From NCBI GenBank assembly GCA_019055375.1, contig JAHQIW010005573.1, positions 62,001 to 126,000 of the forward strand: 64,000 bases of DNA. Direction: 5' to 3'. Made by a program: the position numbers and the translations under genes. This document shows positions 14,436 to 62,640 of the stretch, piece by piece. Below the pieces are notes generated by a model. It was not told where the DNA came from. It made no database searches and was given only the letters and a program-made list of their open reading frames with translations. The stretch comes from Parelaphostrongylus tenuis (lineage: Eukaryota > Nematoda > Chromadorea > Rhabditida > Metastrongylidae). How positions within the stretch are numbered: the stretch's first letter is position 1; every line of letters starts with the position of its first letter.

Positions 14436-15490
14436 TCAAAACAACAGTCTTATATACTGGCTCATATCACGAGTGTTTACAAGGCATTCCTCCCTGCGGT
14501 TTATGGTTGGATTGGTCGTATTAATCCAAAATGCTTCCAAGATCTTTCGCGCTGATGTTTTTTGCTCCTGCGCAAGGATGGTGACTTCGATTTCAAAATC
14601 AACTCCGTCGTGCTTCTGTGCTCTATGCGTCCCTAGCGGGGTGTTTCGTCTATTAAGACGCTTGTCAGCTAGGTGTTCTTCTATGCGTGCATAGAGCGGC
14701 CTACCCGTTTCGCCTATATATTTATCACTACACGCTTTGCAAGAGATTAGGTAGACTGTACCTACGCTCATGCAATCACCGCCTCTGCCGTTAGGACATA
14801 TTTTACAATCTTTCGTTATGCAGAAACGGTCATATAAGCGGTTTCGAACTAATTGGCGTTTTAGAGTATTCGGCGGTATTTCTATAATGGCCACCGATTG
14901 CTCTAAACCCGCTCTTTTCAAACATCGTTTTATAGCTGTACTAATCTCATTTGAATAGAACGGGATGATAAACGGGACTTTGCTTTCATTCAAGTTTTCG
15001 TTCGGAGGCGCATCACTTCCTCTAAACCTAAGCCGAGGGGTTACAAATTCGTATCCATTATAAATGGCTATTTCCCGAGCCAGTTTCACGGATTCTACTC
15101 TCTGCTCCTCCCCGGTACATACATTGGCTGCTGTTTAAAACATGTTTTTTACTAGCGCCTTTTTCGTATGTGAGGGATGAGATGAGACATAGTGAACCAG
15201 GATATTCTTATTACTTGGCTTTCGGTACCACTTTCGTTGTAGCCGCTCTCAGTTAAGTTTATTTGCACGTTCAAAAATAGGAGCCAATCGTCTTTTGGTA
15301 ACTCACGGGTGAATTTTATATACTCTGACTGTTCATTCAACAATCTAAGACAATTATCTAGCTCCTTTTGAGTGGAACAGATGACCAAACAATCATCTAT
15401 ATACCTACAGTGGAGTAATGGCCTGAAATCCATTACTGGTGCTTCCACTTTAGACATAAAGGCAATGGCCAGGTTAGGATCGCATAACAT
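14436..15490 (-). pseudogene. PLE RT C-terminal piece and GIY-YIG endonuclease (inverted arm)
   Basis: Two minus-strand frames. 15490-15152 starts abruptly at the arm junction and carries AIAFMSKVEAP, the catalytic YIDD in CRYIDDCLVICST and the thumb region up to HIRKRR. 15089-14436 (217 residues) is an intact endonuclease domain. It has CITKDCKICPNG and CKAC cysteines of the PLE-type zinc-binding segment, the GIY-YIG pair VYLI...KYIGET, the conserved Arg in RPLYARIEEH, then RRNTPLGTHRAQKH and a C-terminal WINTTNP block. The frame shifts between RT and endonuclease (near 15210-15160), and the N-terminal half of RT is absent by truncation. It cannot encode a complete protein, although the endonuclease part alone is undamaged. 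Confidence 0.88.
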
Positions 15491-17512: not shown

Positions 17513-17715
17513 TGGGTAGGGTGCATTACGAGCCTATGTGTCTCTCTTTCCGGTGATCTCCACTTGGATCATTCAGTGGAACACATATAAAAAGCGGTGG
17601 GTATGTTGAGTGTTGATTTTTGCTTGATGCGATTGAAATCTAGGTCTGGTGTTTTTCTCTAAAGAAGTAATGGAGGTGTTTGACTGATTGTATTGCAAAC
17701 ATTTTGACCTTTCCA

Positions 17716-17750
17716 GGCTCTGAAGAAGGCGAACTGCCGAAACGTCAGCT
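17716..17750 (+). ncRNA. Hammerhead-ribozyme-like motif in PLE 3' region
   Basis: Core CTGAAGA at 17720-17726, GAAA at 17739-17742, and GTC at 17744-17746 as the expected cleavage triplet. Stem I is GGCT/AGCT (four pairs, one wobble). Stem II is GGC-GAACT-GCC with one extra A next to the core. Stem III is only the self-complementary ACGT, which suggests a dimer-type minimal hammerhead. Hammerheads in PLE terminal repeats are known; whether this one, with the bulged A, still cleaves is unknown. Confidence 0.68.
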
Positions 17751-17814
17751 ATCGATTAAAGTTTAATGTAACACCTCGTGTTCTGCTCAAAGAAGAAAAT
17801 CAAGAATCATACTG

Positions 17815-18990
17815 AAGCATGCCGAGGTTAATAGACTGTCGGTCTTGGGAATTTATAAAGTCAGTGATAAAAATTTTACCTATTACGGCAGTAAGCATGA
17901 AATGAAGTAGAGAGCTCTTCAATTCTTCGACAAAAGCATTTATACATTGGTTGAGAAGGATAATAGTCGAAAGATTTCCCTCTCATCCTGTGTTCTTATC
18001 TTGTGCATTGATTCGCTTCTGTAGGCTAAATAAACGCAAAAGATTTTTTCGTGATAAATCCGTTGAAATGTAACGAGGGTACAAGAATGATATGAGCTGT
18101 TTCTTCTTATGTTGATTTGGGTCAAGTTGTTCGGTAACACAACTCGAACAGTCCTACAGAATTTGAAATTTTTCTCTACGATCCAATTTACTGATGTACG
18201 AGAACAGTCGTGCAATGCATTGAAAGCAGTATAAGGTCTTCGACACTTCATAAATTCTCACTTACTTAAGCGCTCAGTGATAATGAAAAAAGTGCTTGCT
18301 TTTTCGGTTCTAGATGAGTTGCGACTGTTAATTTTTTCTGCCGTTGTTTTCATTCATACTATTCAAAGCTGGTTTCAAAGAGTCAAAACTTTTGTCTACC
18401 CTTTTTTACGGCAGGGTACAGTGCGAGATACAGCCACTAGTATGCTGAAGTATAGAAAAGTCGAGAAACTCTGTTGAGCTTCCCAGGAATCCGCCTTTGC
18501 CACTGTTGATGTGGTCGAGGGAAAGTGAATTCTAAGGAAGGGTGATGGAGAGTACTTCAAGTGTGTGTGGTTATAACGGAGACTTAAGCTTGCCATCAAA
18601 TTTACTAAATCTGACTGTCTCAATTGCTTAGCTGTTTGGGAGAGACAAACTATCTCCAAAACAAGGGAAAAATATCCAAGTAAACAGAATGTCACAATCA
18701 CACTGTTCTATAAAAGAATAAAAGGATTTTTCCTTCATTGTAAGGATATCGAAGATTTCGAAGAAAAATTGGCTGTCTATTCAAGAAAATCTACCCAGAG
18801 TTCAAGGGCAAAATTATATTGACAATCTACGAAAGTAGTCACGGTTTCACGAATAGTTTCAATTTCTCTATCATTTGTCCTTAATTTTTATCAGCATTTT
18901 TGTGCTTTCTATCTCTCATTTCTATTTGGTTCAATCTCTTTTCTTTCTGCTTTCTGGATTATTTCCGTTCTTTCTCATTTATTATGAAAA
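17815..18990. other. No recognised feature
   Basis: Short open frames on both strands (for example 18251-17940, 18701-18396) show no recognisable domain. Its high-coordinate end leads into the Srt relic segment. Confidence 0.45.
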
Positions 18991-19095: not shown

Positions 19096-19269
19096 CTGAA
19101 ATTATCAGAATCATAAGTTCATCATGAAAGCAGATTTAAATAGGCTATAACTCAATGACAAAGAATTCTCTTCCAAGAAAAATTTCTGAGAGTGATGAAC
19201 CCTTTTATTTTCCTTTTTTTTGGTTCTCTGCGCCTTTTCTACTGTTTTCATAATGTGCAAAATCTTGCA

Positions 19270-19720
19270 TTATACCGTTCGTTTCGAGTGTATTGTTAAG
19301 AACACGCTCAAATTTCAATGTACGTGATAATTATTTCTTGAGCTCCTACATGTGGTCTGATATGAGCACTTATAGAGCTTACTGCACATGTTTCAGCCTT
19401 GGCAGCTTCGTTAGTTAGGCAGTATCCTCATCTTATCAATCCTATCGGGGGCCCCTACATTCTGTAGAGAGTAGGCGACGACAAACCATTTACACGTACA
19501 GCCAAGTGAAATAAATAACTAGATCGGCAGTATTTTACAGTTGATTTTTCTTGGCTTGACGGTACGTGTAAATAGTACGTCTGCTCCTTCTCTATGTAAA
19601 GGGTTGGGGTTCCCTGAGAGCATTGGTTGAGACGAGGGGTCCTGCCTAAGAGACGAAGCTGCCAAGGCCGAAATACGTGTATTTGGAAGTTCCCATGACA
19701 GACCAGTGTAAGGCGCAAAA
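19270..19720. repeat. HR1 foldback repeat, degenerate
   Basis: Inverted arms (about 19296-19510 and 19550-19710) share the HR1 phrases aagaacacgctcaaatttca and gtacgtctgc. Hammerhead counterparts exist on both strands but are mutated: CTAACGA on the minus strand near 19400, GAGACGA on the plus strand near 19660. Confidence 0.65.
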
Positions 19721-19967
19721 AATATTGATGACGTATGTCCAAAATCTTGCACTTCTTCCTTTCCCACTTTCTATAGCCTTCCGATATTGATGAAAGTTCT
19801 GTCATTTTGTGAGTGAGATTGCCTAATACGAGAGCATCTCTTCTTGCTTACAATTTCTTCAGGGACTGATGTAGATTACCCTGAAATTACGGTATAACTA
19901 GACGAAGGCATACCCACATGTTCATAGCAGGCAGTTATCACCCTTGTGAATCGCAGGAATCTTCGTG

Positions 19968-27700: not shown

Positions 27701-28732
27701 ATACCGTTCAATGAGCTTTTCGGAGCTGGAAATAATGAACTAGATTACTATATAAAAAACTATAAATGAAAAACGACACAGATGTTAAAAAATGGAACTT
27801 CCAGAAATTTCCCAAAACTTTTTACTCAGCTTAATATTTCACAACGCGTCTTCACGTTGCTGAACGGATGCTAGCAGTATTTACATTTTATTCCTTTCTT
27901 TGCACCCACAATCCGTAAAGGGTCTCAAACTAGCTTGCTTGCTGCTTGGAGGTTGTCATCTTTTTGATGAATGTCATCGAATACTGATCAGGTCGATTAT
28001 CACGGAACTCTGGGATACCCATGCTATAGCGCTCCCACTTCGGTTGCAGAGGAAGCGCTATTCCCACGCAAATTTGGCACCAATCTTTCAACTTCGGAAT
28101 GACGAGAGGCTCGGCAAAATTAAAGGCAGGATCGATCCATCATTTGATAAGCTTTTCCTCTGCGCTGCCGCATCCTTTTGCCTTCAACATCTTATATTAC
28201 TTTGTTCTGTATTCATGTGATTTGTCCTTACGAATTATCAAACAGTAACCCACCCAGACCCATGGAACCGGCAATAAAGATTAGTTTCGGAGAGTAACAG
28301 TAGTTAGCTCCAATAATCCAGAGATAGCCAGTCAACAGCGAATTCACCATAAGAGCCGCCATATCGTTCACACCTTAAAAATTTACTGAGAATCTTTTGA
28401 ACGGAGTAATACAGCAACGATCTGGTGTAGGTAAGAGGCAATCAAAAAGATGATAATGTTAAGAGGACGCAGTTCATGTCATCAGTAACCCTACCGGGAC
28501 ATCTCACCTCAACGATACCTCGTTTGTTTAAACTACGAATTCGTTTATGCAAAAATCCTTCAAGAAAATTTCGCTTTTAAGAAAATGTACTTGTCATGAG
28601 GGCCCTTGAAGTAAATTTTTTCTGTCTTGTAAGGGATTTCGGTGTTGCTCTAATATTGGTACTGACGATGTCATGTAATGACTTCACCCACGTCCAACAA
28701 AAAACCTTTATTATACCTTTCCTTCCAGTACT

Positions 28733-28795
28733 TTATTAAGACCACGCTCAAATTCAATAGATCCTTTCATTATTATTTAAGCCTTTATTTTTTTC
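28733..28795 (-). repeat. HR1 terminal fragment
   Basis: Only the end of an HR1 unit: ttaagaccacgctcaaattc followed by the cattattatttaagcc phrase seen at the other HR1 copies. Confidence 0.5.
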
Positions 28796-40579: not shown

Positions 40580-41200
40580 CGCTAAATACTATGAGGTTTG
40601 TAGTACACTGTGAGGTTTAAGCTCAAGCCAAGGCGTAGCACTGCGAAAAGCAAATCTTTTTGCTCTCTCAGCGCGCTCCATGAAGATCTCTTCAAAAACG
40701 AAACATAGCCTCAGGGTCACTTAAATCTATGCTTTCGAACACATATCAAAGGATTCAAAAGTTCGACTTTCTACAAACCTCGGCATAATCAATTGATATA
40801 TGAAAATCGAGAAAACTTATCTTGATTAGCTGGCGAGAGGTTGGAATCAAGATAAGTTTTCTAGATTTTCATATATCAACATATCAGAGGTTTGATAAAG
40901 ACCACCCACAAACTCTAGCCGCCTTGGTGACGTTTGTTGCTAATGTTAGGAAGTTCCACACGAAAGCCATTAAACACCGTGGCAGAGCGAAAAAATGCGA
41001 TCCGAGTGGTAAACTAAGTTTTTTTTCGCTGTTATAGCGAAATGGAAAAGCGTATTCTAGAACCAGGCGCAGTACTAGGATTGTTGAAATTCGCGATGTC
41101 GAAAATCTACTAAAGTCTGATATAAACCGCAGAAATGTCTTCTCGTCAAAGGATCAAAAATGCATTGCGATAACGGAATTGTAGCAGCATGTTTTCTCAA
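40580..41200. repeat. F2-related dispersed repeat containing a hairpin
   Basis: Phrases ttatagcgaaatggaaaagc and attcgcgatgtcgaaaat near 41030-41120 belong to the F2-flank repeat. The perfect-looking hairpin at 40793-40879 is described separately. Confidence 0.45.
40793..40879. repeat. 35-bp near-perfect inverted repeat (hairpin)
   Basis: Arms at 40793-40827 and 40845-40879 are reverse complements with one mismatch (g against the expected t in the middle). The loop is 17 nt. The arm starts ttgatatatgaaaatc and ends cttatcttgatt. The surroundings are AT-rich, but the match is far too long to be chance. Confidence 0.9.
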
Positions 41201-42431
41201 CTTCGATTTGGTGATTCTTTCATACGTTAACCTATCGCTGGGCCTTAGAGCTACTTAGTCTTCACTCTCATATAGTCATTAACTTTTGCTTGATCTTCTC
41301 ATTTATTTGGCTTTTGAATTTCGCTGAAATAACGATAAGTTTGATAGGTTATATTGATGAAAGAGTGATAACAGAACAGCAGCCCCGGTAATGCAGCGGC
41401 TAGCAATGGCCCAGTAAGGGTGAAAAGCGTTTTTGAACTTCCATCACAGATTCAGAGTCTTACATATCACTGAACATTATTCGATATCTTGTTTTATCGA
41501 GATTGTCGAAAGTTATAGTTTTGCTGGTTTTGTTCTGATTACCATTTCCATCAAAATTACTGTTTCTAATGACTTTGTATCAATAGGTTGGGTAAAAGTT
41601 TGAAAAAGCTTGTAAAACATTTATTTGTAGACTTATTACACCCGAATAAAACTAATAAATATATAAACTAATAAAAACTAGTACAATGAACTTCGCCTCA
41701 AGCCAGATTGATGCATTCACTAGCCACCGTTGCATTTGAACCCAACGGCCATTCGTGCATCATCAGCAACCTAATTTACTGCCTTGTTAACTCCAATCTG
41801 GAATGAGTAATTAAATTATATATCAATTACGCGAGAGAAGACGGGCTTTCAAATGAAAACAAAAACACAAAAATGGCCGAAACCCAATAGAGTTACCAGC
41901 ATTTGCGCAGAACATTATCCCCAAATTATTATCTAGCATTTTCACAAAGTTCTTCCTCTTCAGAGCATGGAAAGATTAAGATCACGTGCAACCTAATCGC
42001 AAGTGCATTCGTAATCTTGCTAGAAAAGCATAAAACCTAAACATTAGTCACGTTGGAAATAGCCTCTTTACATGTTTATCGCTTCTTATGAATTTTCTAC
42101 TCGCCGTTGATGGTAGCCCACCGTACCGAATTTAAATGAATGAGTTATCTCCCTCCAGCAGATTGAAAATTCTTCCCGAGACATCCTACGGTGTCACTTT
42201 TTGTTTCCAGTTTTAATTTTCGTTATTTTATTCTGCTTCAATTTATATGTTCTCTTGAGTTTCATTATTCTAGTAACTGATTCATAGCCGGCGAATTCTA
42301 ATGAGCTTAGTTGTTACAGAGCTTTGAACTTACTTTGATAGAGCGTCGTGTCTGACCTAAACTTTGGAATAGATTGTACCTCTCCATTCCTCCTTTTAGA
42401 AACCTTGTTCAAAAACAATGATGGTCTGATA
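41200..42431. other. No recognised feature
   Basis: AT-rich DNA. The stretch 41690-41990 has faint likeness to PLE 3' ends (gtacaatgaacttcgcc, cttcagagcatggaaag) that I could not confirm. Confidence 0.35.
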
Positions 42432-42922
42432 ATGATATAACATGTTTTGAGCAGTTTGTGAGGTCTAAGTGCTGAACAGGAGCGTGTTTCGTTCACCAAG
42501 ACTCTTCAGCAGCACAATCCCTCAGTTCTTCCGATCCCTAAGCTATACTTCTCTATGAAGGAATCGACGTCGAGTAATAAATTATCGCAGATCAGGTGAC
42601 ATAATCCCCTGACACTGCAGTGACTATTCATTATCAAGCCGAAATTGTTTTTCACTGAGGTGTATAAAAAGCAGTCGATTGGAGACGCATGATTCATTGT
42701 AGCAGCCAGAAGCTCAACCGCTGGTCTCTGCAATGTCAGGCGATTCTATCACTTGACTTGCGGTGGTTTATTACTCGACGCCGATTCCTTCATAGAGGAG
42801 TATAACCTCAAGAGATCGGCTGAACCGAGGTGCTGCGCCACCGGAGAGTCTTGGAGGAGGAAACAGGCGCTTGTCTCGCACTTAGACCTCACAAATGGCT
42901 CAAAAGATGTTATATCATTTTT
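42432..42922. repeat. HR3 foldback repeat
   Basis: Arms of about 190 bp (42432-42621 and 42727-42922) are inverted around a 105-bp spacer. Paired phrases include aggtctaagtg/cacttagacct, gaaggaatcg/cgattccttc and ctgacactgcag/ctgcaatgtcag. The left arm (minus strand) contains a well-formed hammerhead at 42469-42515. The right arm has its decayed counterpart near 42845-42885 (gagaa-type core, ggaaac). Solo ends of the family are at 8040-8145 and 51000-51120. Confidence 0.75.
42469..42515 (-). ncRNA. Hammerhead-ribozyme-like motif in HR3
   Basis: Minus strand: a perfect 6-bp stem I (GTGCTG/CAGCAC at 42515-42510 and 42474-42469), core CTGAAGA (42509-42503), a short stem II region GTCTTGGTGAAC (two firm pairs), GAAA (42490-42487), stem III CA/TG closing a CGCTCC loop, and GTT as cleavage triplet directly before stem I. 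Every invariant core base of the hammerhead consensus is present (the variable N7 is A). The weak stem II makes activity doubtful without a test. Confidence 0.68.
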
Positions 42923-43399
42923 AGTTTACATTGTTCAAATGTTCCATATCAACTCTCGCATCCATGTTGCATAGCAGATTGCTATGCGATTATATATCGA
43001 ACAGATTGAGGCAGACTTTCAAATTCATCACTTGGTCGTGGTCCCTTCTCGAAGGCCAAGCGCAGCCCATTCTGCTTTCCTTCCCTTGTAAAATCACTTT
43101 TCTTGTTATTCTTATGTTCATTGAAAGCCTAAGATACATCTTAACATGGTCTTTTCATCATCCATATTACTTTGCTGATCATGCACCACGTTTTATTCAT
43201 GGATCGAAAGTTCCTTTCAAGTAAATAAGCTCACTAAAAATTTTCTTAACATCCACAAAAAATTGAAATCTTATGATCGTTTCACAAAATATCAGTTGTT
43301 GTAAATTCATGGAGAAAACTGAGGAATAATTCCATAAAATCTCCTCAAGACAACACTACTTATAGTGCATCAAATTCAAATTTACTCTTTGGATATCAA

Positions 43400-44399: not shown

Positions 44400-45150
44400 T
44401 CATTTTTTTGAGCCATGCATATGGTCTAAATAGGACAACTTATAGAGTCTTATACACGTGTTTCGGTCTTGACAGCTTCGTCAGCCGAGCAGTACCCTCC
44501 GCCTTCATTTTAGCTAATCCTCTTGGGGAGCTCAGCCTCTCATATAGAGTTGGCGCAGACGTACTTTTCAGACATTCTATTGAGTGAGAATATTATTGAA
44601 TGGACAGCGTTTTAGACTCGATTGCTCTTGGCTGGTATCGTTAAATATATGATACCTTTTGTTTCGAGTGTTTTTAAGGCTACGCTGGACTGCCGAGGTT
44701 GTCGAGGCGGAAACACGTGTATCGGGCTATATAAATTGCTCTATAAAAGACCACATGTATGGCTCATAAAATGTTTATCAGGTATATGGAAATTTGAGCG
44801 TGGTGTTAAGAAAACACTCGAAACGAAAGGTATGATATATTTACTGATACCAGCCAAGAGAAGTTGAGTCTAAAACTCTGTCCCTCCAGTAATATTTCCA
44901 ATAATGGAACGTGGAAAAAGCTCATCTGCGCCAACTCTATATGAGGATGTGGGCTCCACCGAGGATTGGCTAAAACAAGGACGAAGGTACTGCCTTAATG
45001 ACGAGGCCGTCAAGACCGAAACACATTTATCGGGCTCTATTAGTTGCTCCATAATAGACCACATGCATGGCTCAAAAAATGTTGATCAGGCAAGATTTGA
45101 GCGTGGTCTTAAGAAAACACTGAAAACGAAAACTAAAATGTTTTTTAACA
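44400..45150. repeat. HR1 foldback repeat with two tandem monomers
   Basis: Left inverted unit at 44400-44640, then two direct units. Hammerhead-like sites: minus strand 44445-44490 (CTGACGA, GAAA and CACGTG kept, stem I broken); plus strand 44688-44727 (stem III CACGTG, GTA and TCGGGC kept, core CTGCCGA); plus strand about 44990-45035 (AATGACGA core). The two plus-strand cleavage positions (after 44721 and after 45029) are 308 nt apart, which defines a monomer length. Confidence 0.72.
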
Positions 45151-46103
45151 TTTTGCCAAATCTGCTAGTTGGTCTTCATCTGCAATTCCTGAAATGTGCA
45201 ATACTGCAATGACGAAACTTGAAGGGTAAACTTAGCAATGAAACTACTGCTCGATAATTTAAGAGTCCACCTTTTCGGTAAGGATTACTGCGGTTCACCT
45301 TCTTTGTGGCTTGAGGTTCATAACGGCCTCCAGTCAAAAAAAAATCTTGTGATGATGCTATCTGCCTCAAGTGATTTTTCAGTCTTAATTAGTTCGTTCT
45401 TAAACTCTTATCTCATAGTAAAATACCCAGCATAATTCTTCAAGAGAGAATTCTGGAGTCCTGAACGGAAGATTTTGGCAAACTACTGAGATTTATTGAA
45501 TATTTTCTCATTATTCCAGACATATTATAACATTTGTTGCTAACATGATGTTCAGATTTATTCTTTCTCTATAGGTTTTCCTTCGAGGATTTTTCTCCTA
45601 TAGATAATCGTCTTCGTAGATCATGCTTCTTTCTCTCTTCTTTAGGATGCCTGGTTTCGGACTTTTTGATTCTAAACTTCTACTAAGATAAAAAACAGGC
45701 GTTTGCTTTGGTATTTTTAACTTTTTAATGAAAAAGATATTTTAAGCATAGAGAGACGATTTTACAAAACCTGAAGATGACTCCAATACGGAAATGGCCA
45801 TATTTATGTCAGTGAAACAAGATATAGATAACTGATTGACCAAACTGAATGGTGAGATTTCTTTTATTCTTTACTCACGTGATGCAGTAGTTGAAAGATG
45901 CTCTGAGAAAAAAATGGTTTTTCGCCAAGTTCACTAAAGTTAACTATGCTCTCTCTTTTTTCTGTATCTGCACAATCACACCGAGATTATCTGGTAAGAT
46001 AGTAGCACGAGCGTGATCTATTGGCTAGCCCGCAGCAAGCCATTGCATAGGGAATATGCCCTCTTTGTCGCGTCCCCAAGGGATTAATCAAGGCCGATTG
46101 AAC

Positions 46104-46113
46104 GTTTTCTTCA
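46104..46113 (+). repeat. Target-site duplication, left, of the HR1 insertion
   Basis: gttttcttca, repeated at 46840-46849. The empty site in copy 1 is around 3804-3820 (gatttctttactg). Confidence 0.75.
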
Positions 46114-46168
46114 CTTTCATCATTATTTGAGCCAACATGTCGTGTGGTCTGGTAAGGGCTCTTGTGCA

Positions 46169-46210
46169 GCCCGAGACACGTGTTCGTCCTTACAGACTCA
46201 TCAGCCGGGC
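46169..46210 (-). ncRNA. Hammerhead-like motif in inverted HR1 arm
   Basis: CTGATGA, GTC/GAC stem II, CACGTG and stem I (GCCCGG/TCGGGC) are present. The invariant GAAA has lost one A, so it is probably inactive. Confidence 0.6.
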
Positions 46211-46695
46211 AGAACCCGTCGTCTGTCGATCTTTTTATAGTCAGTTCTCTCGGGAGCATTACGCTCCTTATAGAGAGTTAACGACGACGTACGCTTTACA
46301 CTCTATGTCAACTGAAACATTCACCTAACACAGAGTGTTGTGCACTCGATTGTTCATTGGCTGGTACTCTTATCATAATTATACCTTTATCTCGAATCCG
46401 AAACACGTGTCTCGGGCTGTACAAGAGCCCTTACCAGACCACATGACATGTTGGCTCAAATAATGATGAAAGGATATATTGAAATTTGAGCGTGGTCTAA
46501 ACAAAGCACTCGGGATAAAGGTATGATTATGATAAAAGTGCCAGCCAATGAGCAGTCGAGTGCACAACACTCTGTGTTAGGTGAATGTTTCACTTGACAT
46601 AAAGTGTAAAACGTACGTCGTCGATAACTCTTTTTAAGGAGTGTAACGCTCCCGAGAGAAACTGACTATAAAAAGATCGACAGAAGACGGGTTTT

Positions 46696-46738
46696 GTCCG
46701 GCTGATGAGTCTGTAAGGACGAAACACGTGTTTCGGGC
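46696..46738 (+). ncRNA. Hammerhead ribozyme candidate in HR1, intact core
   Basis: Stem I GTCCGG (46696-46701) with TCGGGC (46733-46738), four Watson-Crick plus two GU pairs; core CTGATGA 46702-46708; stem II GTC-TGTAAG-GAC 46709-46720; GAAA 46721-46724; stem III is the palindrome CACGTG 46725-46730; cleavage expected after T46732 (GTT). All invariant bases match. A stem III that can only form between two molecules or two tandem copies suggests the dimeric mode of action known for PLE and retrozyme hammerheads. Confidence 0.78.
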
Positions 46739-47559
46739 TGTACAAGAGCCCTTACCAGACCACATGACATGTTGGCTCAAATAATGATGAAAGGATATAT
46801 TGAAATTTGAGCGTGGTCTAAACAAGCACTCAAGATAAAGTTTTCTTCATTGTCTGTCTGTGAAGTTTTTTTGAAAGACCATTACCTAAACAGCGAACAT
46901 TTTACACTGTATGTCATGTGAAATTATCACTAAAATTTAATAACGACTGCAAACGAGAAATGAAAAATATCAGTGAGTGAGGTAAAGATCTTGGAACAAT
47001 GGACAAATGATACTATACATGATGAAGTTGAATGCATGTCGTTCATTCACAACAAAAAGTTTTCTAAAATGACTCTAATATGGCCTTAATTGGACAATCC
47101 GCTTGCATTTTTTCACTGAGAGGCCAGCAGGAGACTGGCAAAAAGGGTCGGCTCCACTGAATTCGACTCGTTGCGACCACGAAGACCTACATGGGAAAAT
47201 GAGCGACAGTAGACAATTCACTAGTTGAGCCTGGTTGCGATGACGGATGAGTCGAATTATGGCCTGAAAAAATGCCTTCAACTTCATATTAGCACATTAA
47301 TAAAGTAATACACACTGAGGAAGAGAATTAATCCAACTTTTCAGCCGTCAGTATGTTGCCCTCTCGTCGAAGTGTGTGCGGCCAACGGTGTCACCGTCGC
47401 TATTCGTCGTTTACGGAATCCCAGCATTTCAAAAACTTCACGTTGTATGGTCCTATTGAGAAGGAGGTAAACAAATGCTGGAAATCCTGAAAAGACAAAT
47501 AATAACAGTCCTATGAGCGATACTGAAAGACGATAACTTTCGATTCATGTCTGCTGTTT

Positions 47560-48010
47560 TGAGTGTTTTCTTGGGAACACGCTCAAATCTCAAAATATCT
47601 CGTATTATTAGTTGAGCTAACAGGTCATGTGGTCCGTTAAAGGGGTTGACTTATACAGCCCGATATACATGTTTCGACTTTACGGTCTCATCAGTCGGGC
47701 GGTACACTTCGTCTTTAGCCAGTCCTCTCGAGGCGCTCAATCAACTATGCGTGGTCTTGAGAAAACATTTAAAACAAAGGGTATGATAGACTAACGATAC
47801 CGGCCAAGAGCAATCGAGTATACAGCAATGTGTGTTCGATGATAATTTCACCTGACATACAGTATAAAATGTTCGCCGCGGCTTACTCTTAGTATAGGGG
47901 ACTGAGTACCCCAAGAGGATCGGCTAATGACGAAGGGTACCGCCCGAGTGATGACACCGTCAAGGTCAAAACCCGTGTATCGGGCTCTATAAGTCAGCCC
48001 ATTTAAAGAC
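47560..48010. repeat. HR1 foldback repeat (copy 2 of 4555-4995)
   Basis: Same layout as the 4.6-kb copy. The minus-strand hammerhead at 47658-47700 is intact in its core. The plus-strand one near 47942-47985 has GTGATGA and has lost the G of GAAA. Confidence 0.7.
47658..47700 (-). ncRNA. Hammerhead ribozyme candidate in HR1
   Basis: Perfect 6-bp stem I (GCCCGA/TCGGGC), CTGATGA (47694-47688), stem II GAC-CGTAAA-GTC, GAAA (47675-47672) and ATA as cleavage triplet. Stem III reads CATGTA instead of the palindromic CACGTG, which should weaken dimer formation. The paralogue at 4652-4695 carries CTAATGA instead, so the core has been lost in copy 1 only. Confidence 0.72.
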
Positions 48011-49257
48011 TTTCAATATAGTCTCACAAAGTATTGTGAAATGTAAAGAGAAAAAACCTTACAAGTTTTGTTCCCTAACCCCTTGAGTCTTACATTGAAT
48101 TTTCATACTCAGGCGGCGGAATAACGCGGCGAGCGTGGTGAGCGCAGCGCTTCGCAATGACAGTGTTGTAGTTTTTGTAAGCAAGTTTAGATTTTTGTCA
48201 CCACTAAAAGAGATTTGATCGTTATTAGATGTTTAAATATAATGGAAGAGATTTTAATGAGGCGTTTTTGATTGAAGCATGTCAAAACAACTACAAAACG
48301 ATGAACTGTTCGTAAAAAATGATGCAGCACATTGGAATCAAGTGTCATTCATCGATATTTCGAGGTAACTTTGTATTATTAGTTGATTTTGAGAGTTGGG
48401 AATTTTATAGAGTTGTGGAGGAGATGTTGTATTGTATGAATGTAGTAACGTTTTATACTATCCACTTACAATTTGATATAAACATTATTCATAGCTGCAC
48501 CTTGTCCAGATCTCAAATGGGTGAATGCATTTCTATCAAGGCTTACACAGATCATATATCAAGAAATCCTCTAAAAGTTTTTTTTAGAAGCCGTTCATTG
48601 CAGAAAATGTGTTTTCGTAATGCCTTTACTCAACGTCATCGAAAGAAAGAAATGTGGAAATAAAGTTGGGGTATTGCTTTTCTGACATATAGCTTTCGCA
48701 TTAGAAAGCAGGAAATTCTAAGACAACTGGACGTGTCTTTCACCAAAAATACATTTACAAAAGTACCCCCAATAAGACATAGTCTCACCTTAGTAAGAAG
48801 GCTTGCATGTTATCAAATTTTCGCTATGTAGTGCCAGAAATTCCCGCATAAAGTTTGAGCAACGCACTCCAAAATCAAATGGATAACTTTTTCTTATTGA
48901 AACGTATATGAAGATCGCGTCATAGACCGTGTAGCAACAAATTTGGCATTTTTCAAGCTATCGGATGAGTACAAAAGCATAAGCTAAGTGAAAGGTAACA
49001 TTTGTGATATAACAGTTGAAAATTTGTTACTCTTCGCAATGATGTTGCTTTCTCCTTTAGAAGACATTGGAGATTCCTCGGTCTGCTCTGTGTTATTCCA
49101 TCATTTAAGTGTGGTATTATTTCTTTGGAATCTTAATTTACCAAACAAATTCTCATATTTTATTGCAGCGCGCGGTGCGCGACATGACGAATGGTAGCAC
49201 ATATAAGTGTCACTTGTGTCTACATGTGTTAGATCTAATAAAAACTTCTCTTGTGTT

Positions 49258-52200
49258 TCATTTTCGCTTTTCAAAATTATTATATAAATGACGTTTGAAG
49301 TGAATCAAATTGTATGCATTGTTACCATGACCGAGCTGCCAGCAGATATGACCGATCAGGACCAGATAAGACGCAGTTGCGAAGAACTGCATGTAGACGT
49401 AAATCAATGCCGCAACAAGGTTTGCCAGACAAATTAACGATGACTGGATGAAAAACTAAACACGGAGTTTGAAATTGGATGTTTATTTGGTTCTTCTTTC
49501 AAATGGACAATGTAGAGCGTGATAATTCACAGAACTATTATGCTTTCAAAATTCTGTGCTCACTTTCACTACAAATATATTTTCGCACACTTTTGAGTCA
49601 TTCAATATGAAACCTAATTTGACAAAAAAAATTTAGTCAGTTTATCACTGATCTCTTTCGCCATTTCCTCTCCTCTCTTAACCACTCCATATGGTACGTT
49701 AAACAATCTTCATTTTCATTCTTCGTCCTTTGTTTTTTTTTTTTGTGAACATATTCTTCGAAAACCATCACTCACCGATTTTTGAGCCCATGTCAATCCG
49801 GTGCTGATTTTTAAGTTTCGTAGAAGTTCTTTAGAATATTTTACGTACAGCAGACAAGTCATTACAACGATGAAGAGATTATTGGCTGTGTGTGGATAGT
49901 TGTAAAACTGGAAAGAAAAATTATTCAGAAATCTGTCCAAAATTTTTGAATCTAATCCATATTCATCAGCCACTCTTTTCCATAGCACATTTTTAGAAAT
50001 TTCAACGGTTAGGATTAGCACAATCGATCTTCGAAATTTCCTTCCAAAATCAAATTTCTTGCTTCCGTTTAGATGGAATATCGTAGTTAATTCAATAAGT
50101 AAAATAAGAGGCAATAATGTCGACTTCGAAAATCACCCAAAAGAAATTTCTCTCTGGTAGAGCTCCAAAATATACGTTATCGCTTCGTCGCACGAGGCTC
50201 AGTTTACAACTAACTTACCTCTGAATTTGCATAACAGTGGAGATGAGTGATAAAAGAATAAAGAGAAGAACAGCAATTATGACTGAAGTTTCAAAGGTGA
50301 GAAGAGTTTTTGCAAACGCCACTGAAGCTTCGCCAATAGCAAAACAACCGTGATTGCACTATCACGCTTAGGGAAGACCAGTGGAAAGGACAGTGTCGAA
50401 AATTACTCACGAAAATTATTCGGATCTATTCAGAAATTACGTATTCACACATCTATATGAAATGAGGTGGGATGTATGAAATGCCTCATTAGCTGCCTCT
50501 TCTCTAATCGATCATGTTACTTTGTCTATGAAGAACTGGAAAGCACATCGTACAAAAAAGGGTAGGTTTTGAGCACTTAAAAAGTGTTCCCTCAGTTTTT
50601 GTGAGGACGCTGGCCCAGCTTCTCACAACCCACCTGTCAAAATGATGAAGACTTTATGTTTAATAGGAACCAGAAAAGCCTTGTTATCGCTCATTTTAAA
50701 AGGAGGTGGATCGGACGTGTGATGCATTTGAACGACAACGATGGAGGAGAATCGTTAGATTGTTCGTCATGAAAAACGCCGAGTAGGAAAACCACCGCCT
50801 CGACTGTCATAGGTTTACACAAAAACCTTAGAATAAAAGTGTGGTGTAAAGCGAATCCACCACCTACTGTGTCACACGATGTAGACATCTGAAAGGCTCA
50901 CAGCCGGCTATTCGAGTCTTTAGAAGTCAACGAGGACCAAGTGAAGCACTCGAATAGACTGCTTATTGTTTTACCCTACTCCCGACTGTTTATATAAACC
51001 TATTTCAAAACAAAGATAATCTGATAACATGATAACATGCTTGAGCCTGTATTGGGTCTGGTACGGAGCTTATACAGCACTAAACAGGCGCTTGTTTCGC
51101 CCTTCAAGGCTCCTCAGTGCTTATTGCTTTCTTTACCAAATATTTTTTTCACAACGGCAAACTTTCCACATACGTCTTCAGGGTCGGTGTTCGGTGCAAA
51201 AGTGGCAAAAAACCATGCCATGTAGTCCGAGTTGAACAGTAATGGCGGTGTGAAAAGCATGAAGTATAGGAAGTAAACAAATGGAATCAGAAGGACCACA
51301 TAAGTGCGGTTGTCCTTGAACACCTGAATGAAGGTAAAGATCGTGCATAAGCGACAAAAACATTTGATAAACGAACATCACTTTGATTGATTAAATCCAT
51401 AGTTGAATACTGTATAAAATTAATAAACAATAGGGAGAGTGTAATATTAGGTCTTCTCATATGTTTTGGCATTAGAGCAATAAACACGAAGTCAATTAAA
51501 CAAAAGAAATTAAGACTGCTCAATAATACAATTCAAAGTATGCGTCAATCAACCTAAACACATTTCTGCCATCGCTCAAGCAACAAGTCAATACCGCGCT
51601 CATAGAAGTCGCCATCCTTGGGTTCAAACAAAGATGTTCCTGCGTTTGTGCATTTGTGTTTGAGTGAACTCGTGTGGAATTCATCGACCGCTCTTCCACT
51701 TCTTGCCTGCTTCGTTCGATATTCTGCTGAATGTCGCATGACCGCAGCCAACACCCTCAGCCGACTCCTCTATAGTCAAAGTCGGAGCCTTTTCAGCTGC
51801 TTCGATGACGGCCTCTCGATCAAGTCTGCGTTGGACCGATTTGCACGTTGTGCGCTATTTTTAAATAGACTTTAAATCAACTGTACCACTTTTACCAATG
51901 ATTGACTTTGATGTTTCCTCACTGCAATTATAGTTTTCCAGTTCATCAATCAAATATTGTAGGTGAATGACTGATAAGATTATTGGATGCTAATGTTTTG
52001 CAGACCGTCAAATAAAAAACCACCAACGTACGCAACGCTTGCACGGATGGTGATGGATTTTAATGCGCATCAGGTCTCTCAAGTTGATGTCGCCGACGCG
52101 AAACTCAGCAAAGAGCCAAAACGCTGTTTGCTTGGACACAAATCTTTGAGCTTTGCACGGTTGATGTTCTCGAAGACGGTCTGTGCATCGCGTCCCAGAC

Positions 52201-55200
52201 CGTACTCGTAAGGCAACCAATTTAGATACGGGCCTCGTTGGGCAGCCATGCGACAAGTATGGAGATATTTGGTACCAAAGGAGAGCTTATAAATCCGCAC
52301 AAAGCGGTATAGATCTGCTTGCCTGAGATGGCAGAAATGTGTTCAGACTGATGGCGCATACTTTAAATAGTGCTGTTAAGCAATTCAAATACTTGTGGTT
52401 AACAATTTGAGGTTTCATTGCTCTAGTGCAAAACTTATGAGAAGATAGTGGCATTATTGCTATCATCAAATTTTATAACTCATGAGCATATGAGAGATTA
52501 CGAAGGAAAACGAGATTGCAATCCACAATTGCAATCTCTTACGGATGAACGAAGCACTCGATTCACTAAACGATGTGGAGTTTATTGGACGAATAGTTGG
52601 CCTGTATGACATCTTGGAGTGAGATGACGATGTACTGAGTTAATAACCAATCCGGTACTTGGTTTCCATCTCATGTTTCAGTATTGAACAAAAGGCGAGA
52701 GTGCAATTTGCAGAGCGAACTTTTATTAACTTCTACGTTGGCCGATGATTTACTGCTTTGCTTGGTGAAAGAGTGCAAAATTGTTAATAGTAATAGTTAT
52801 TAATCATGACCTCATCTCTGCCTTCAGGAAGAAAGATTTTATTGATAGAAGGATAAAGGGTAAAGCCCTCGGTATTGATCAATTCCTAAAGGATGCACGT
52901 GGTATTCGACTGCAATTTTTAACTTCGTTTGAGGTTATTAAATGTCACATCTGGCCCTTGCAGTGGATTCGCGTGCCTCGCCTTGTATCTAGCATAGTGC
53001 TGTTTATCTTCCCAGGCAAGTCTGAAACCGTGAAGTCACAATCTACTGAGCCCGACGGATGGATGGCTTGGTGAGCCATATGCGTGAAATCGGCCGTCCG
53101 ACCTTGCGCGCGACGTAGAACACCTCTAACCACTGCGCCATATGCGTTCCTTTTGTTTCCATTGAACAAATGTGTAATGCATTAACCCCTAAGGGACCGC
53201 TATAAAAATCAAGTGCGTGCAGAGCGGATTGAGCTATTTTCATTGTCTGTTTAAAGTTTTTCCCACATTTCGCGCAGACACTATTGTAACACTTCGATGG
53301 AGCCAGATTTTCTCTGCTCGTTCGTATTCTTTGCTTTTCGTTCAAATATATGTTCTGCGCATAAGGAAGAACGCCGGTTTACTGCGTAACCATTTTGAAT
53401 ATGACAGTGAATCAATTGTATTGAATTGTACGAAGGATATCATAATATAAATCTTTGGTTTTGATTTTCCGTGGTTTTGCAGGACCCAAAAGTCATATTA
53501 GGGGATAAAAATCGGAGACTAAGGAGTAATTTGTCAAAAATGATCACTTTTAGTTGTGACAACACAATAAACAGTCCATTTGAAAAGTCAAACATATTGC
53601 CGAAACTGCTGAGATTTTTGGTACCAAATGGTTATTGAATGTCTTAATGAAAAGCTGTGCTCAGCGAAAGCTACTTGAGTGTGAATTAAAATTCATTTTA
53701 CTATCTTTTACTATCACAGGAAATTATAAAAACCATTTGCTGTCAATTCTCGATATTCATGATATAGAATTCCTATTAAAGTGCCAAAATGCAATAAAAA
53801 AATACGCATTTTGAAACATGGGTGCAGATTAGGGCAAAGTACCTATTATTCTCAGCAATGATGAACGCTTCCTCGTCCACACTTACTCCAGCTACGTACT
53901 ACTATTACCGGTACTTTTCCGTTAGCTGAGCGCCACTTCGACTTTTCAGAAAAAAATTGTTCCGCACTTGTTTTCGACTATTCCGTTAGCTTAAATCATA
54001 AGAATTTTAACAGGTGTACTCCTTCTTCAAGAAGGCCCTATCACTGCGCTGAAAGAGCAAAAAAGAGTATTCCGTTTCTCATTGAAATACTTCTCGCTGA
54101 CCAAAGCTTTTCCTTTCAAGTTCCATTAACCAATCGATAGATCAAATTTTAAGGACTCCAATGATGTATTTGGCTTTATTATGGACCTGGTACTACGCTG
54201 TAACAGCTGAAAGAAGATTGGGTTTCGCAAAAAAGATCACTTCAACCATCCTCTCTTCACTTCGATCCATGGGGAAACGTATTTTTTGATCGTTTCTTAT
54301 GTCTTGCATAACCAATCGAAAGCTCAAATCAAAAAAATTCGAATGGTGCATTTCATTTTCAGAAAGGCCATTTTGTTGCGTTGAAAGAAGCAAAAATAAT
54401 ATTTTGCTCTTCATTCAAAGATTTCTCGCTGACCAAAAAATTTTCTTTGGAATTCCAGTAAATTAGTCGATAGACTAGGTCTTAAGGATACCAATGATCT
54501 ATTTAGTTTCAAATGTCGACCTCATATCACGCTGTAACAGCCAAAAGAATATTCGGACTTTGCAGAACTGGAAAAAAGGCATTAAATGCGAAATCCAATA
54601 ATCTTTGGTTATCATGGTACACTAGAAAGTCAGATAAAGAAATCAAAAACATTGTTGGATACTTTGAGATTTGACTATCGTTTGGTTTTTAAAACCATAT
54701 GAGAGGGGTCCTGATTAGAGAGAAATCTTTAAATGAAGAACAAATTATGACTTTTGCTTCTTTCGAACGCAATAATTGCTCTTCGAATAATAAGTCCTTT
54801 TTGAAAGCAAAATACACCATTCAATTTCTTTCGATGTAAGCCATCGATTGGTTATTGAATCATTGGAAAAGATTAGAAAATACGCTTTTTCCTATGGATC
54901 GAAGTGAAAAAAGGATAGTTGAAGTGTTCCATTTTTTGCGAAACCCATTCTTCTTTTGGCTGTTACAGGTTAATATCGGATCCATGATAAAAACCAAATA
55001 GATCATTGGAATCCTTAAGATTTGGTCTACGATTGGTCAGTAATGCTCAAAGGAAATCTTTTAGTTAGCGAGAAAACTCTTAATGAGCAACAAAATTGTA
55101 TTCTTGCTCTTTCAGCGCGATAAGAAGGCTTTTTTAGACATAAATACACCATCGAAATTATTTGATTTGTGCTATCGAGCGGCTACTTGAGCTTTGAGAA

Positions 55201-58200
55201 AGACCAAGAAACATGTTTTTACAAAGGGTCAAAGTGGCGCCACAGCTAACGGAAAAGTACCCAATTACCTCCACATAGACCTCAACCAGAGGTGTTTACT
55301 TTTAAAAGATGCGATGTGCTTTCAAGCTACGTTCTCGCAAGACAGGAGATACAGACGCGCAACAAAGATTGAAAGATTGTTTATTTTCTTAGAAGCATGT
55401 AGTATCACAGCTGAAAAATAAAGGATTTCAAGAGAAGTCGATGATTCTTCATACTAAGAAATCTTTATAAAAGATTTCTGTTGCAAAGACTGACTACTTC
55501 TCTGATAAATCTGTTATCATTCGTGATATTCCATTCTTTGAGCAATGATAAGATGCCTCTGACGTATAAAATATCCATAATTGTCAATAGAACAGCTATA
55601 ACGTACATGAGGCAGGGCAGCATTTTAGGCGTGAAATGTGGTTTTCTCTTCTTTCTTACGACGTTCTATAATAAACTTTCTAAAAGAACCACTACTACAT
55701 CTTCAATTTTCGAGATTTGGACTATCTAATGACTAGTGAAGCTTCAATAAAGCGCCATATCGAAGACACAGCTGAGCAAATGAAGTAAATTAAGCGTGGA
55801 ACACAATTCTATTTTTGCTGCTTTAACGTAAAAAAGTGTTTTGTTAAAACTAAACATATTGCAGAAATCGCAAAGATTCAAGCTTTTGAGGGAATACCAA
55901 ATGTCCAAAAGAAAATCGGGACTAACGGTCCCATAATATGAGAAAATTTGATGGGTCAGAATCCTGAGGCCTCATGGTTAAGAAATCTTCTGAATGGCAA
56001 ACCGCTTGCATCATTTGTTTGTTAGACACTTCTAGGAGACGATTGATGACCAACACGAAACAGTTCATGCATGCACCACACCAGAGACCTATAAGCATGA
56101 GAGTAGTCGACCGCATCTTTAAGTTTTTGAGCAAAAATGCGGTACATAATGCTGGATTTTTCTAAAAAAGAACACCTTCACTTTGAATGAGCTTTTCATT
56201 TCTTTAATTGCTCTGTAGCAAAAGTTATGCTGCTTTCGTGCTTATATAATTTTTTAGGAAATAACAAAATCCCACCAAGAGCTATGGTACCAGTGATGAA
56301 CATCAACTTTGGACAATAACAGTAGTTAGCACCGACAATCCAGAAGTAACCAGTTAATAATGAATTTAGTGCAAGTGCCGCCATATCGTAAACACCTGAA
56401 AAAAGCCCTCTGCGATTTGGTTTCGCTATACTTGCACAGTTACAGCAATACTAAGCTAATGGTAGTCGAAAAAACATTTAACGATCATTTATGACAAGTC
56501 AAGGACAGAACTGGGACATCTATGAGTGCTTATCAATCAGACGTAGTCATTGGTGCGTTTCCCTTTCGCTCAGAGCCGTCGGCTATTTATTTTTCTTTTT
56601 TCTCTCTCAATTGATGTTTTTACTTTGTGAGAGGTTGAATATGACAAGCTTTACTCGCAAAATAGCCCGAAGCGATTATTTTAAACATATAAATACTTGA
56701 GATGTCACCTAAAACGATCATGATCTTATAGCAAGACAGATGACGGTGCTTTTCTCGCGTCATGACGCTCAGCACAGTGATATACACGAGCTGAAATCAT
56801 CAGAATAATCAGCGGAATAAATCATAGGCTGTCTTTATCTTTTCATCTCTCCTATACGAGCTCAGATTTCAATAAGCTCCGTTGGTACACTCAACTGCCA
56901 AGATGGCGTGGTGTCATTTTTACTCGAATCATTCCAACAATGGAACGCTATCTACAGCGGGTTCGAATAGAGGACCTACGTGTGCAACTACAGCGCATGG
57001 CTCTAGAATCCACTCTATTTTCCATATGTCTTTCGTCTTATCTTTCCATCGTATCATCATCTTATCCTCTCTCTAATCCAGATTTAGATTAGGAAGACCG
57101 GAGTTCTTAGTGCGAAAGTACGAAATGTGTAGTTAAGCTCACGATTACCAATTTGTGCTGAGAAATTAGGCCAAAAAGAATCCTTGATAACTATCGTTTC
57201 ACCAAGAAGCTCATTATGTACAAAAAAGGGGAAATTTGGAGTGGATATTCTATCTTATTGATCCCTTAGCATAACACTTTACGGTTGATAAATTCTTGTT
57301 GTTAAACCGGATTAAAAGGGAAATATTGTAACCCCGCAAGTCATGTCTACGCACATCAGTCTCTGAAGAAGTTCAAAACTACTGCTAAGGGGAAAACCAG
57401 TGTGATTGTCAGACTCTTTCTCAGTAATCAAACAACTGTACTAATGCGCCATCGTCTTCGTATACCTTGACTTTCTTAATAACCCTTGGCCATTAGTACT
57501 CGCTTCTTTCTGCTCAAAAATAAAGCCTCAACTATAAGAAAAAAAAAGAAATGAATGAAAACGTACTTCAGCAACCAGTCCATAAATTACGAATGATATT
57601 CCAAGCCAGACATTCACATATCCGGCTTTTCTATTCGAATCTCTGCAAAACAATAATATTCTTCAGTTGACGAGACGCAGCATGACAAACACATTTCAAT
57701 GAATACTTCATCTTAAGGTGATCAAAGAGAATTGTCATCAACTTATTACAATTGTGACAGAATGTCTCGACTCATTAGAAGGTCTTCATCACACTGATCA
57801 ACAGAGAATCACTGTCTTCTTGGGGTATCTCAGCAACAGATCTTCGCTCGGTAAAAACTAGCAGTCCTTCTTCAGAGAAAAACTATTTTTAGCTATCAAT
57901 GAAGATGTTAACAAGCAAGCGATTTCATATCCACATGCCGTAGCTCCTTGACCTGAAGCCGACCTCGCTACTGGTGAAGGTTACGATTGATGGTCCTGCC
58001 GCTCATATGACACACAGGATTTTTTTCATTCGTCTGAGTAAGCAGCTATCTTGTGTGTTTAACGATCGCAGAATAGTAGACAAGATTGAAAATCGGGAAT
58101 TTGGGAATTTTACAGAGCTTAAAAATCGTCGCTTCTTTTGCCACCATTCATTGCAAGTTAATACTGTATTCGCATCTTTTTAAAAAATCCTACAATATAA

Positions 58201-60830: not shown

Positions 60831-62640
60831 ATAAGTCCACAAAATGTTAGAGAAAAAAGTAACTATGTTGGAAAAAAGGGAGCTATCATTGTGATGCAAA
60901 CATAATAAAGTCAGAGTCTATTGGAGCAGGCAGAGGACTCTCTGGTAATTAGTTGAATTTGTTACTGGTGGCATCTAGAGAGGCCATGACCGAGTGGCTG
61001 GTAAGCTCGACGTGGAATTGATCCTACAGCCTCTCAACACTCTCCGGCCATCAATGAGCAACTCCACATGGAACGTCCCAGTCTGGTTATCCAAGAGATT
61101 GCAAGTAGATGTGCGCGACCAATATTCTAGGCCGTTTTTGAAGGAAATAAAAACCTCCAACGCAAGGCGATAAATCGAATGCTGAAAGTATTGAGATTAG
61201 CATGGCAGTAGAAAAAAGAAACAGAGCGTTATAGGGTCAAATAAAGTAAAAAATAAAGGATAAAGCTCTCAGCGTTGATTAATCTCTAAGGGATGCGCCA
61301 TGCATTCGTCTCCAATTTTTGACTTCGTTTGAGGTGATTGATTGCATACTGGCCTTAACAATAACTCGCGGTGGCCTCCCGCTGAGCCGAGTCAGTGCCC
61401 CTTATCCTTCCAGACAAGTCTGAGACCAGTCTGGTACCAATTTATCAACCCCGGAGGGATGGATGACTTGGTGAGTCATGAGCGCGAGATCGAACCATTG
61501 ATCTCGTGTGCGACGCGGAGCACCCTAAACACTGCGCCACATGCGCTCGTCAAATAAAGTAGTGGAGTGAAATGACTGAAAGGGCTTGTTGAAAAAAGAG
61601 AGAGATCTAGCACTGTGATGCAAACATAATCAGGACAGAAATTAACAACTGAAAAGGTAAATTTCGAATAACCAACCTACTTTGTTATTAGTGTTGAACG
61701 AGCTCTCAAGTAGAGCAATTTATTTAGGGATAAAGAGAGCAAAAAAGGGCTTTATTGTACTTCAGTTCAATTAAACTCTTTGTAAACTTACTTTTCATCA
61801 ACTTGGACATTATAAATCATAATCAAACAAGTTTTTATTTTAACTAGTACCAGGACTGATATGAAGAGTTATTCGGTTAAAGTCTCAACGTTATCTTCAC
61901 TAGAGTCGATGATTCGAGTTGATTATTCCCACTGTCATGCTAATCTCAAAGCTTCCAGCATTCGATTTATCTCCTTACTCTAGAGCATTTTATTTCCTCC
62001 AAGAACGCCCTAGAATATTGGTCGAGCACATCTTGCAATCTCAAGGATAGCCAGACTGGGGCGTTCCACGTTCCATAAATAACGAATTCCCCATGAACTT
62101 CCCCCTCTGGCTATTCCTGAGATTGCAAGGAGATGTGCTCTAACAATATTCTAGAACATTCTTGAAGGAAATAAAATCCTCCAGAGCAAGGAGATGACTC
62201 GAATGTTGGAAGTATTGGAATTAGCATGGTACTAGAAAGAAGAAACGGACTGTTATACGGGCCAAATAAACTAGTAGACTAAAATTATTGAAAAGGGCTT
62301 GCTGAAAAGAGAGAGGACTAACACTGTGATGCAAACATAATGAGGACAGGAACTAACGAACTGGAAAGGGAAATTCGAGTAGCCTATACTTTATTATTAA
62401 TGTTGAACGAGCTCTCAAGGGGAGCAATTATTTAAGAATAAAGAGAGCAAAAAAGGGCTTATGAATCTCAGTTCATCTGCACTCCTTGAAAAGTTGCTTC
62501 CCATTAACTTGGACATTATCAATCATTGGAAGTTTTTAATTTTAACTAATACCAGGAGTTTGATATCAAGAGTTATTCAGTTCAAAGTGTTAACGTTATG
62601 TTCTCTCGAGTCAATGGTTCGAGTCGATTACTTTTGACGT
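60830..62640. repeat. Tandem repeat array with internal palindrome
   Basis: The phrase gtgatgcaaacataat occurs at about 60891, 61616 and 62326, each time after an aaaaagggag/gggcttg stretch. A second module (gagattgcaag..gatgtgc ..aatattcta ..gaaggaaataaaa..cctcca) occurs at 61095-61165, 62125-62195 and, inverted, at 61985-62045. The inverted pair forms a palindrome of about 145-bp arms (61934-62078 and 62090-62235). Unit length is near 710-720 bp between the last two copies. No coding function seen. Confidence 0.75.
61249..61548 (-). mobile_element. tRNA-derived SINE, family S1
   Basis: Minus strand: GGCGCAGTG in the A box, GGTTCGATCTC as B box, TTTATCC-type tail. An identical 13-bp target duplication gtcaaataaagta at 61236-61248 and 61549-61561 shows recent insertion into the tandem array. 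Confidence 0.87.

Follow-up and report, generated by a model that had tools for sequence, protein, structure and literature searches.

The window, by which we mean the whole 64-kb stretch of nematode DNA analysed here, contains several copies of a repeat that we refer to as HR1. The copy at 46114-46839 is a single 726-bp insertion with an exact 10-bp target-site duplication (TSD) on both sides (Table 1). The corresponding paralogous site (3802-3811) is empty, and because the alignment there runs unbroken through the joined flanks, the insertion must postdate the duplication. A preliminary description of this DNA had noted both the TSD and the empty site, and both are real; it had also reported the absence of a protein frame, and indeed the element contains no frame that reaches 150 aa, the longest overlapping stop-to-stop frame having 96 aa. 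The arms form an inverted repeat (92% identity over 284 columns), and the whole element is predicted to fold into one long duplex (-532.8 kcal/mol, against a mean of -190.9 for 20 shuffled sequences) in which both of its hammerheads would be buried. With one of its two hammerheads damaged and both predicted to be hidden in the arm duplex, this copy is a product and not a likely source; it is probably a dead-end foldback, and direct arrays such as L046 and L048, described below, are better candidates for the source. Rfam matches to MIR821 at 46304-46601, on both strands and below the gathering score, were read as an effect of the inverted arms.

If the unit is numbered so that position 1 is the first base past the hammerhead cleavage site, the outer ends of the insertion fall at two sites downstream of the cut, which we call T1 and T2. 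T1 lies within the loop of the hairpin that follows the cleavage site, and T2 lies about 25 nt beyond the base of that hairpin.

Table 1. Features of the HR1 and HR2 families and of the Penelope-like element (PLE) in the window
Feature	Position	Strand	Remark
Left TSD, GTTTTCTTCA	46104-46113	+	exact repeat
Right TSD, GTTTTCTTCA	46840-46849	+	exact repeat
HR1 foldback insertion, whole element	46114-46839	.	bounded by TSD; empty paralogous site
Left arm, antisense HR1 unit	46114-46395	-	outer end is an RNA 3' end, unit position 61 (T1)
Right arm, sense HR1 unit and partial next unit	46399-46839	+	outer end at unit position 108 (T2)
Type I hammerhead, intact core	46696-46738	+	predicted cut after 46732 (GUU)
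Left-arm hammerhead	46169-46210	-	GAAA short of one A, probably dead
Hammerhead 3' half, without CUGAUGA	46399-46417	+	321 nt upstream of the full hammerhead at 46696
Hairpin AGACC..GGCTCAAA / TTTGAGC..GGTCT	46757-46819	+	after the cleavage site; also in HR2
Older HR1 foldback with direct units	44404-45130	.	hammerhead-like 44447-, 44684+, 44992+; cores or stems damaged
Older HR1 copy	47540-48060	.	hammerhead core intact at 47658-47700(-); hammerhead at 47942(+) damaged
HR1 copy, segmental-duplication paralogue of 47540-48060	4537-5055	.	hammerheads damaged
Old HR1 foldback	19269-19735	.	hammerhead-like 19377-, 19644+
HR1 copy clipped by window edge, paralogue of 44807-45322	1-522	+	hammerhead-like 189-232(+)
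HR1 fragment	28710-28783	-	terminates at T2
HR2 foldback	42425-42931	.	hammerheads 42469-42515(-) and 42835-42881(+); R2 E 2.9e-9 and 7.7e-4
HR2 hammerhead fragment	51055-51117	-	paralogue 8068-8133(-)
PLE, head-to-head pair of truncated copies with RT and GIY-YIG parts	14133-17850	.	left end T1, right end T2
PLE minimal hammerhead (GGCT CTGAAGA..GAAACGTC AGCT)	17716-17750	+	pattern match
Minimal hammerhead of the other PLE copy	14198-14232	-	pattern match

The preliminary description had placed hammerhead-like motifs on opposite strands in the arms of the HR1 copies and had singled out those at 46696-46738 and 47658-47700 as the best. The first point is borne out by model R1 (trained on 21 sequences, 11 of them window-derived), which finds such motifs at 4652-/4938+, 19377-/19644+, 44447-/44684+/44992+, 46169-/46696+ and 47658-/47942+; for the copy at position 1, only the motif at 189+ falls within the window. 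It is borne out in part by model R2, an independent covariance model built from nine hammerheads of a second family, HR2, outside the window, which matches HR1 at 46696 (E 7.5e-5), 47658 (6e-5), 46169 (0.0053) and 4652 (0.049). Both of the favoured motifs keep the invariant core, although helix III of the one at 47658 contains a C-A mismatch. Motifs are present as had been claimed for every HR1 copy, but an intact core is found in the window only at these two places, the other aligned hammerheads having changes in core or stem (19644 lies outside the alignment). Likewise, the proposed 321-nt spacing of cleavage positions is right, but the upstream site is only a hammerhead 3' half, and both sites of the pair said to be 308 nt apart (44684 and 44992) have damaged cores.

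Scanning with general descriptors gives a graded picture. If no mismatch in the core is allowed, the full type I descriptor has one match in the window and none in six Markov windows. Nothing anywhere in the window reaches the Rfam gathering score, the motif at 46696 obtaining 29.0 bits (E 0.005; cut-off 34), whereas the same search of the window's own assembly (481,506,261 bases in 5105 contigs) gives at least 31 Hammerhead_1 matches, at least 20 of them above gathering, with 74 of 119,811 candidates scored. All 31 of these genome matches belong to HR2. Type I hammerhead matches were found in none of 14 control genomes. When six loci (L039-L044) were scanned with Rfam, the hammerheads lay inside HR elements, one HR1 copy scoring 34.9 bits (cut-off 34), with a further weak match between HR1 pieces (L040:2006-2049, E 0.25).

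Covariation of the stems, which had been named as a decisive point, was found. In 21 HR1 hammerheads, taken from 25 rows by omitting two window HR2 rows, one HR2-like row and one deletion row and aligned without structure, 83.7% of the cells are paired, compared with at most 44.4% in slid structures, and 27 cells are changed on both sides, compared with 9.4 in shuffles, none of the 500 of which reaches 27; one helix II pair varies as A-U, G-C and U-A. Of the five measures, two are weaker: 8 pairs have a change on each side, against 5.1 (24 of 500 shuffles as high), and further pair types number 19 against 17.1 (97 of 500). The significance is inexact because shuffling breaks the relatedness of the copies, which the slid control keeps. 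Judged from these alignments, the HR1 hammerheads covary across the 21 copies.

The HR1 copies of the window are not independent: 4555 and 47560, and 1 and 44807, are paralogous pairs. Several copies come in pairs because of a segmental duplication of about 9 kb (3173-11851 and 45372-55061, in pieces 79-85% identical). Other repeats lie in the same stretch of DNA. One of them (53910-55261 and 10258-11872) has copies of about 333 bp in both inverted and direct orientation and is possibly a third family of the HR layout; Rfam, R1 and R2 found no hammerhead in it. Inverted and direct repeats of 77-83% identity occupy 61048-62630, and a short palindrome (84% over about 87 bp) lies at 40787-40885, with a match to MIR7807 below the gathering score.

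Across the genome, HR1 and HR2 share one layout, with units of 320 bp in the former and 284-285 bp in the latter (unit GC 0.424 and 0.444), and they have in common two stretches of 57 and 51 bp (E 0.003 and 0.02) in addition to the hairpin after the cleavage site. A DNA search gave at least 80 HR1 matches (40 of 4480 first-look candidates scored), and among the matches listed, near full-length copies other than the window's are 91-96% identical. Thirty loci were cut out and five dropped (the window and four overlapping ones), leaving 25, of which 24 contain a full-length hammerhead. Core and stems are intact in 36 of the 49 full-length hammerheads outside the window copy, and a C occupies the cleavage position in 35 of those 36. 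In five loci, at least two intact hammerheads lie on one strand at a spacing of 318-320 nt; L046 and L048 each have three direct hammerheads spaced 319-320 nt in head-to-tail 320-bp units, with adjoining units identical at 317 of 319 and 319 of 319 positions, respectively. The HR2 pattern has no match in viral contigs.

The insertions are marked by duplicated target sites. A TSD (score of at least 7) accompanies 20 of 46 element rows and 17 of 25 rows, compared with 1.7% of 300 random position pairs, a null with a long tail (99% point 10.4, maximum 13.3) that may come from random pairs falling in repeats. Once L060 was removed as a second copy of the L059 insertion (same contig, same TSD, other strand), 36 TSD-supported elements remained. 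Their TSDs are 8-16 bp long, with one of 27 bp (L026, lengthened by eye), and the median is 12 over 26 of the 36; such variable length is as expected for target-primed insertion. In 26 TSD-supported elements, the motif AAY before or RTT after the TSD, picked out only after the data had been inspected, occurs at 15 of the 52 ends, where 500 null draws give a mean of 2.25 and a maximum of 9; if a shift of one base is allowed, it occurs at 18 of 52 (null mean 6.7, maximum 14). In one HR2 insertion with a 15-bp TSD (L036:1408-1772), the 5' end is at unit position 3, immediately past the hammerhead cut, as would be seen had reverse transcription reached the end of a cleaved RNA.

The positions of the ends follow a simple rule. 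Head-to-head foldbacks make up 26 of the 36 TSD-supported elements, and in these two-armed elements the outer end of each arm is an RNA 3' end. In 25 of the 26, one end is at T1 and the other at T2, with zones that were set after the ends had been seen, and in none of the 26 is the same site used twice (binomial 3e-8); the exception, L020, ends at 16 and 92. The medians are 63 and 113 in HR1 (ranges 53-73 and 107-117) and 40 and 90 in HR2 (33-49 and 74-94), a spacing of 50 in both families, the L026 end at 74 being scored as T2 only owing to the wide zone. Of the 25 mixed-end elements, 12 have T1 on the left. All 10 one-armed TSD-supported elements terminate at T1 or T2, so that 61 of 62 outer 3' ends do. 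The count leaves aside 34 of the 71 element rows, those with no clear TSD, and among such rows L010 (42/56) and the HR2 foldback at 42425 in the window (44/50) look like T1/T1.

These ends bear on the reading of HR1 and HR2 as foldback DNA transposons in which the hammerhead is an incidental relic. Long inverted arms, TSDs and an element in the window that folds as one duplex are what such a transposon would have, but its two ends would not be expected to differ in sequence as those of HR do, being two sites 50 nt apart in one direction; moreover, direct multimers with no inverted arms have TSDs too (L023, L046 and L048), and TSD length varies between 8 and 16 bp, with the one of 27. We therefore consider a foldback transposon extremely unlikely.

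A comparison for the HR ends is provided by the PLE of the window, which also has two ends and a hammerhead of its own. Its minimal-hammerhead pattern matches twice in the window and in none of 10 Markov windows, is missed at 17716-17750 by the Rfam scan of the window and does not match anywhere in the 25 HR1 loci. Hammerheads of PLEs are reportedly described in Cervera 2014 and Lunse 2017. A TSD-like ATTTATAA(A)G was read by eye at this PLE. The named relatives of the element are from Angiostrongylus, Parelaphostrongylus, Ancylostoma, Necator, Heligmosomoides and Haemonchus, and these strongylid names support the nematode host proposed in the preliminary description. The family is young, with at least 40 copies (the window's included) 98-100% identical over 305-311 bp (40 of 3204 candidates scored). 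In a sample of 22 copies (the window's two and 20 of the 39 others listed), the 3' ends fall at +63 to +69 from the hammerhead cut in five and at +102 to +107 in 17, the values 105-107 perhaps including one to three chance target bases; the ratio of 5 to 17 is uninformative because L091, L092 and L093 were chosen for an early-stopping match. The window pair has one end of each kind (+67 and +105). RTT follows T2 in 10 of the 17 copies. The tail, that is, the spacing between T1 and T2, is 38 nt in the PLE and 50 in HR. BLAST finds no match between the HR units and the window PLE.

It is worth considering whether HR1 and HR2 are themselves pseudo-LTRs (pLTRs), solo or truncated ends of coding PLE families. 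The pLTRs described in the available part of PMC3846280 (about 180-220 bp, head-to-head, with a possible tail on one inverted copy and TSDs of 8-10 bp) are much like HR, and PLE protein homology occurs in 3 of the 25 HR1 loci and 5 of 30 HR2 loci. However, tandem units recur every 320 or 284 bp, and PLE coding sequence is absent between them; the homologies in the three HR1 loci lie outside the HR1 element, and in the other 22 there is none within about 1.5 kb, for queries that span the later RT and the GIY-YIG domain and that an N-terminal PLE piece would escape. In L023, an HR2 array of 3.35 units interrupts PLE coding sequence; the array is flanked by a 12-bp TSD of its own, and one of its ends carries about 21 nt of filler. 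Around the PLE of L039 and L040, the only pLTR-like repeat is a single 34-bp match. On balance the pLTR reading is improbable, and having no RT or GIY-YIG coding frame, HR1 is not a PLE, though inserted like one.

Because the HR elements end at two 3' sites and the PLE of the window has its own hammerhead and two such ends, HR1 and HR2 appear to be retrozyme-like and inserted by a PLE. By the features tested, HR1 is an animal non-LTR retrozyme, and we regard it as highly probable that both families are non-coding, animal-type retrozymes using a PLE protein in trans. The retrozyme-like identity proposed in the preliminary description is supported by the type I hammerhead, units of 284-320 bp, direct multimers, a GC content of 42-44%, the absence of a coding frame and TSDs longer than 4 bp; the PLE-style insertion that it had suggested finds support in the two-site 3' ends, in the like ends of PLE copies from this genome and in a similar target motif. 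As far as the sequences indicate, insertion in trans by a PLE protein priming from both target strands is most likely. An animal-type retrozyme could instead have been moved by a LINE, since LINEs too use target-primed reverse transcription and the mobilising enzyme is left open in the available parts of PMC7229834 and PMC11722881. Nonetheless, an internal start at two sites downstream of the hammerhead and extension on both strands are PLE features (PMC11167929, from the part available), a PLE of the same genome has the same kind of ends, and no A-rich tail was noticed by eye at HR 3' ends in the element-end listings. This makes mobilisation by a LINE very unlikely.

Starting from what is observed (the covarying hammerhead, the units, the TSDs, the positions of the ends, the T1/T2 rule for copies with a supporting TSD and the two 3' ends of the PLE), a route of amplification by PLE protein can be imagined. 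Direct multimer copies would be transcribed, the hammerheads would cut the transcript in the worm into units of 320 nt (HR1) or 284 nt (HR2), and these would probably be ligated into circles. A GIY-YIG/RT protein, presumably that of a PLE, may bind the hairpin just downstream of the cleavage site and nick both target strands about 12 bp apart, often beside an RTT motif. Reverse transcription would start inside the RNA, on one strand from T1 in the hairpin loop and on the other from T2, which lies 50 nt further downstream, and the enzyme would run anywhere from part-way to about three rounds of the circle, or along a multimer. Joined head to head, the two cDNAs would make a foldback, whereas one strand copied alone would make a direct array.

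Whether T1/T2 pairing is obligatory is a separate matter, to which we give an even chance: a PLE protein dimer might hold one retrozyme RNA or circle, its protomers starting at two fixed sites on the two target strands, in which case each complete insertion would have one tailed and one untailed end. In vitro, as given in the available text of PMC11167929, an Anolis PLE cuts and extends both strands and starts inside its own RNA at two adjacent sites, the stretch between which is the 30-40 bp tail seen in the genome; no difference in start site is reported between the two target strands, a result that does not by itself predict strict pairing. If true, obligatory pairing would explain the PLEs' own inverted pLTRs and optional tails and would make retrozymes SINE-like partners of PLEs across animals. 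In any case, the T1/T2 rule provides a simple explanation for the peculiar inverted ends of PLEs, for which the authors of PMC3846280, in the part available, favour self-priming on an antisense template.

The enzyme that inserts animal retrozymes is open in the literature (PMC7229834, 2020; PMC11722881, December 2024; both as far as available). End positions are a test of the inserting enzyme that needs only sequence and is applicable to any genome; in this one, the HR ends point to PLEs, the PLE of the window serving as an internal control. HR1 and HR2 would also extend the host range of retrozymes to a nematode lineage: a literature search, mostly at the level of titles, found no report of retrozymes in nematodes, and the phyla named for animal retrozymes in the available part of PMC7229834 do not include them.

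It is informative to set HR beside the known systems, cited here from the portions of the papers available. With PLEs (PMC3846280, PMC11167929), HR has in common a hammerhead near the RT starts, head-to-head ends, a tail at one end, TSDs of about 8-12 bp and an ATT/RTT preference, the PLE of PMC11167929 preferring an ATT target and the pLTRs of PMC3846280 lying head-to-head with a 31-bp tail on one. Both parts of the PLE insertion signature, two 3' ends with a tail and head-to-head ends with a short TSD, are thus found in HR (26 two-armed elements). The differences are that no RT or GIY-YIG frame was found in the HR units, which multiply as units of 284 or 320 nt, and that the HR tail is 50 nt, compared with 30-40 in published PLEs. 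Plant LTR retrozymes (PMC7761336, PMC7229834) are alike in being non-coding, bearing a hammerhead and depending on a foreign RT, but they differ in their type III hammerheads, their LTR, PBS and PPT and their 4-bp TSD. The animal non-LTR retrozymes (Cervera and de la Pena 2020, PMC7229834) share with HR the type I hammerhead, short tandem units, GC below 50%, the lack of a coding frame, TSDs of more than 4 bp and the presence of PLEs in the same genome, and the HR units of 320 and 284-285 bp lie within the range of about 150-450 bp that defines retrozyme tandem units. They are, however, head-to-tail tandem arrays, whereas 26 of the 36 TSD-supported HR elements are foldbacks with two defined 3' ends.
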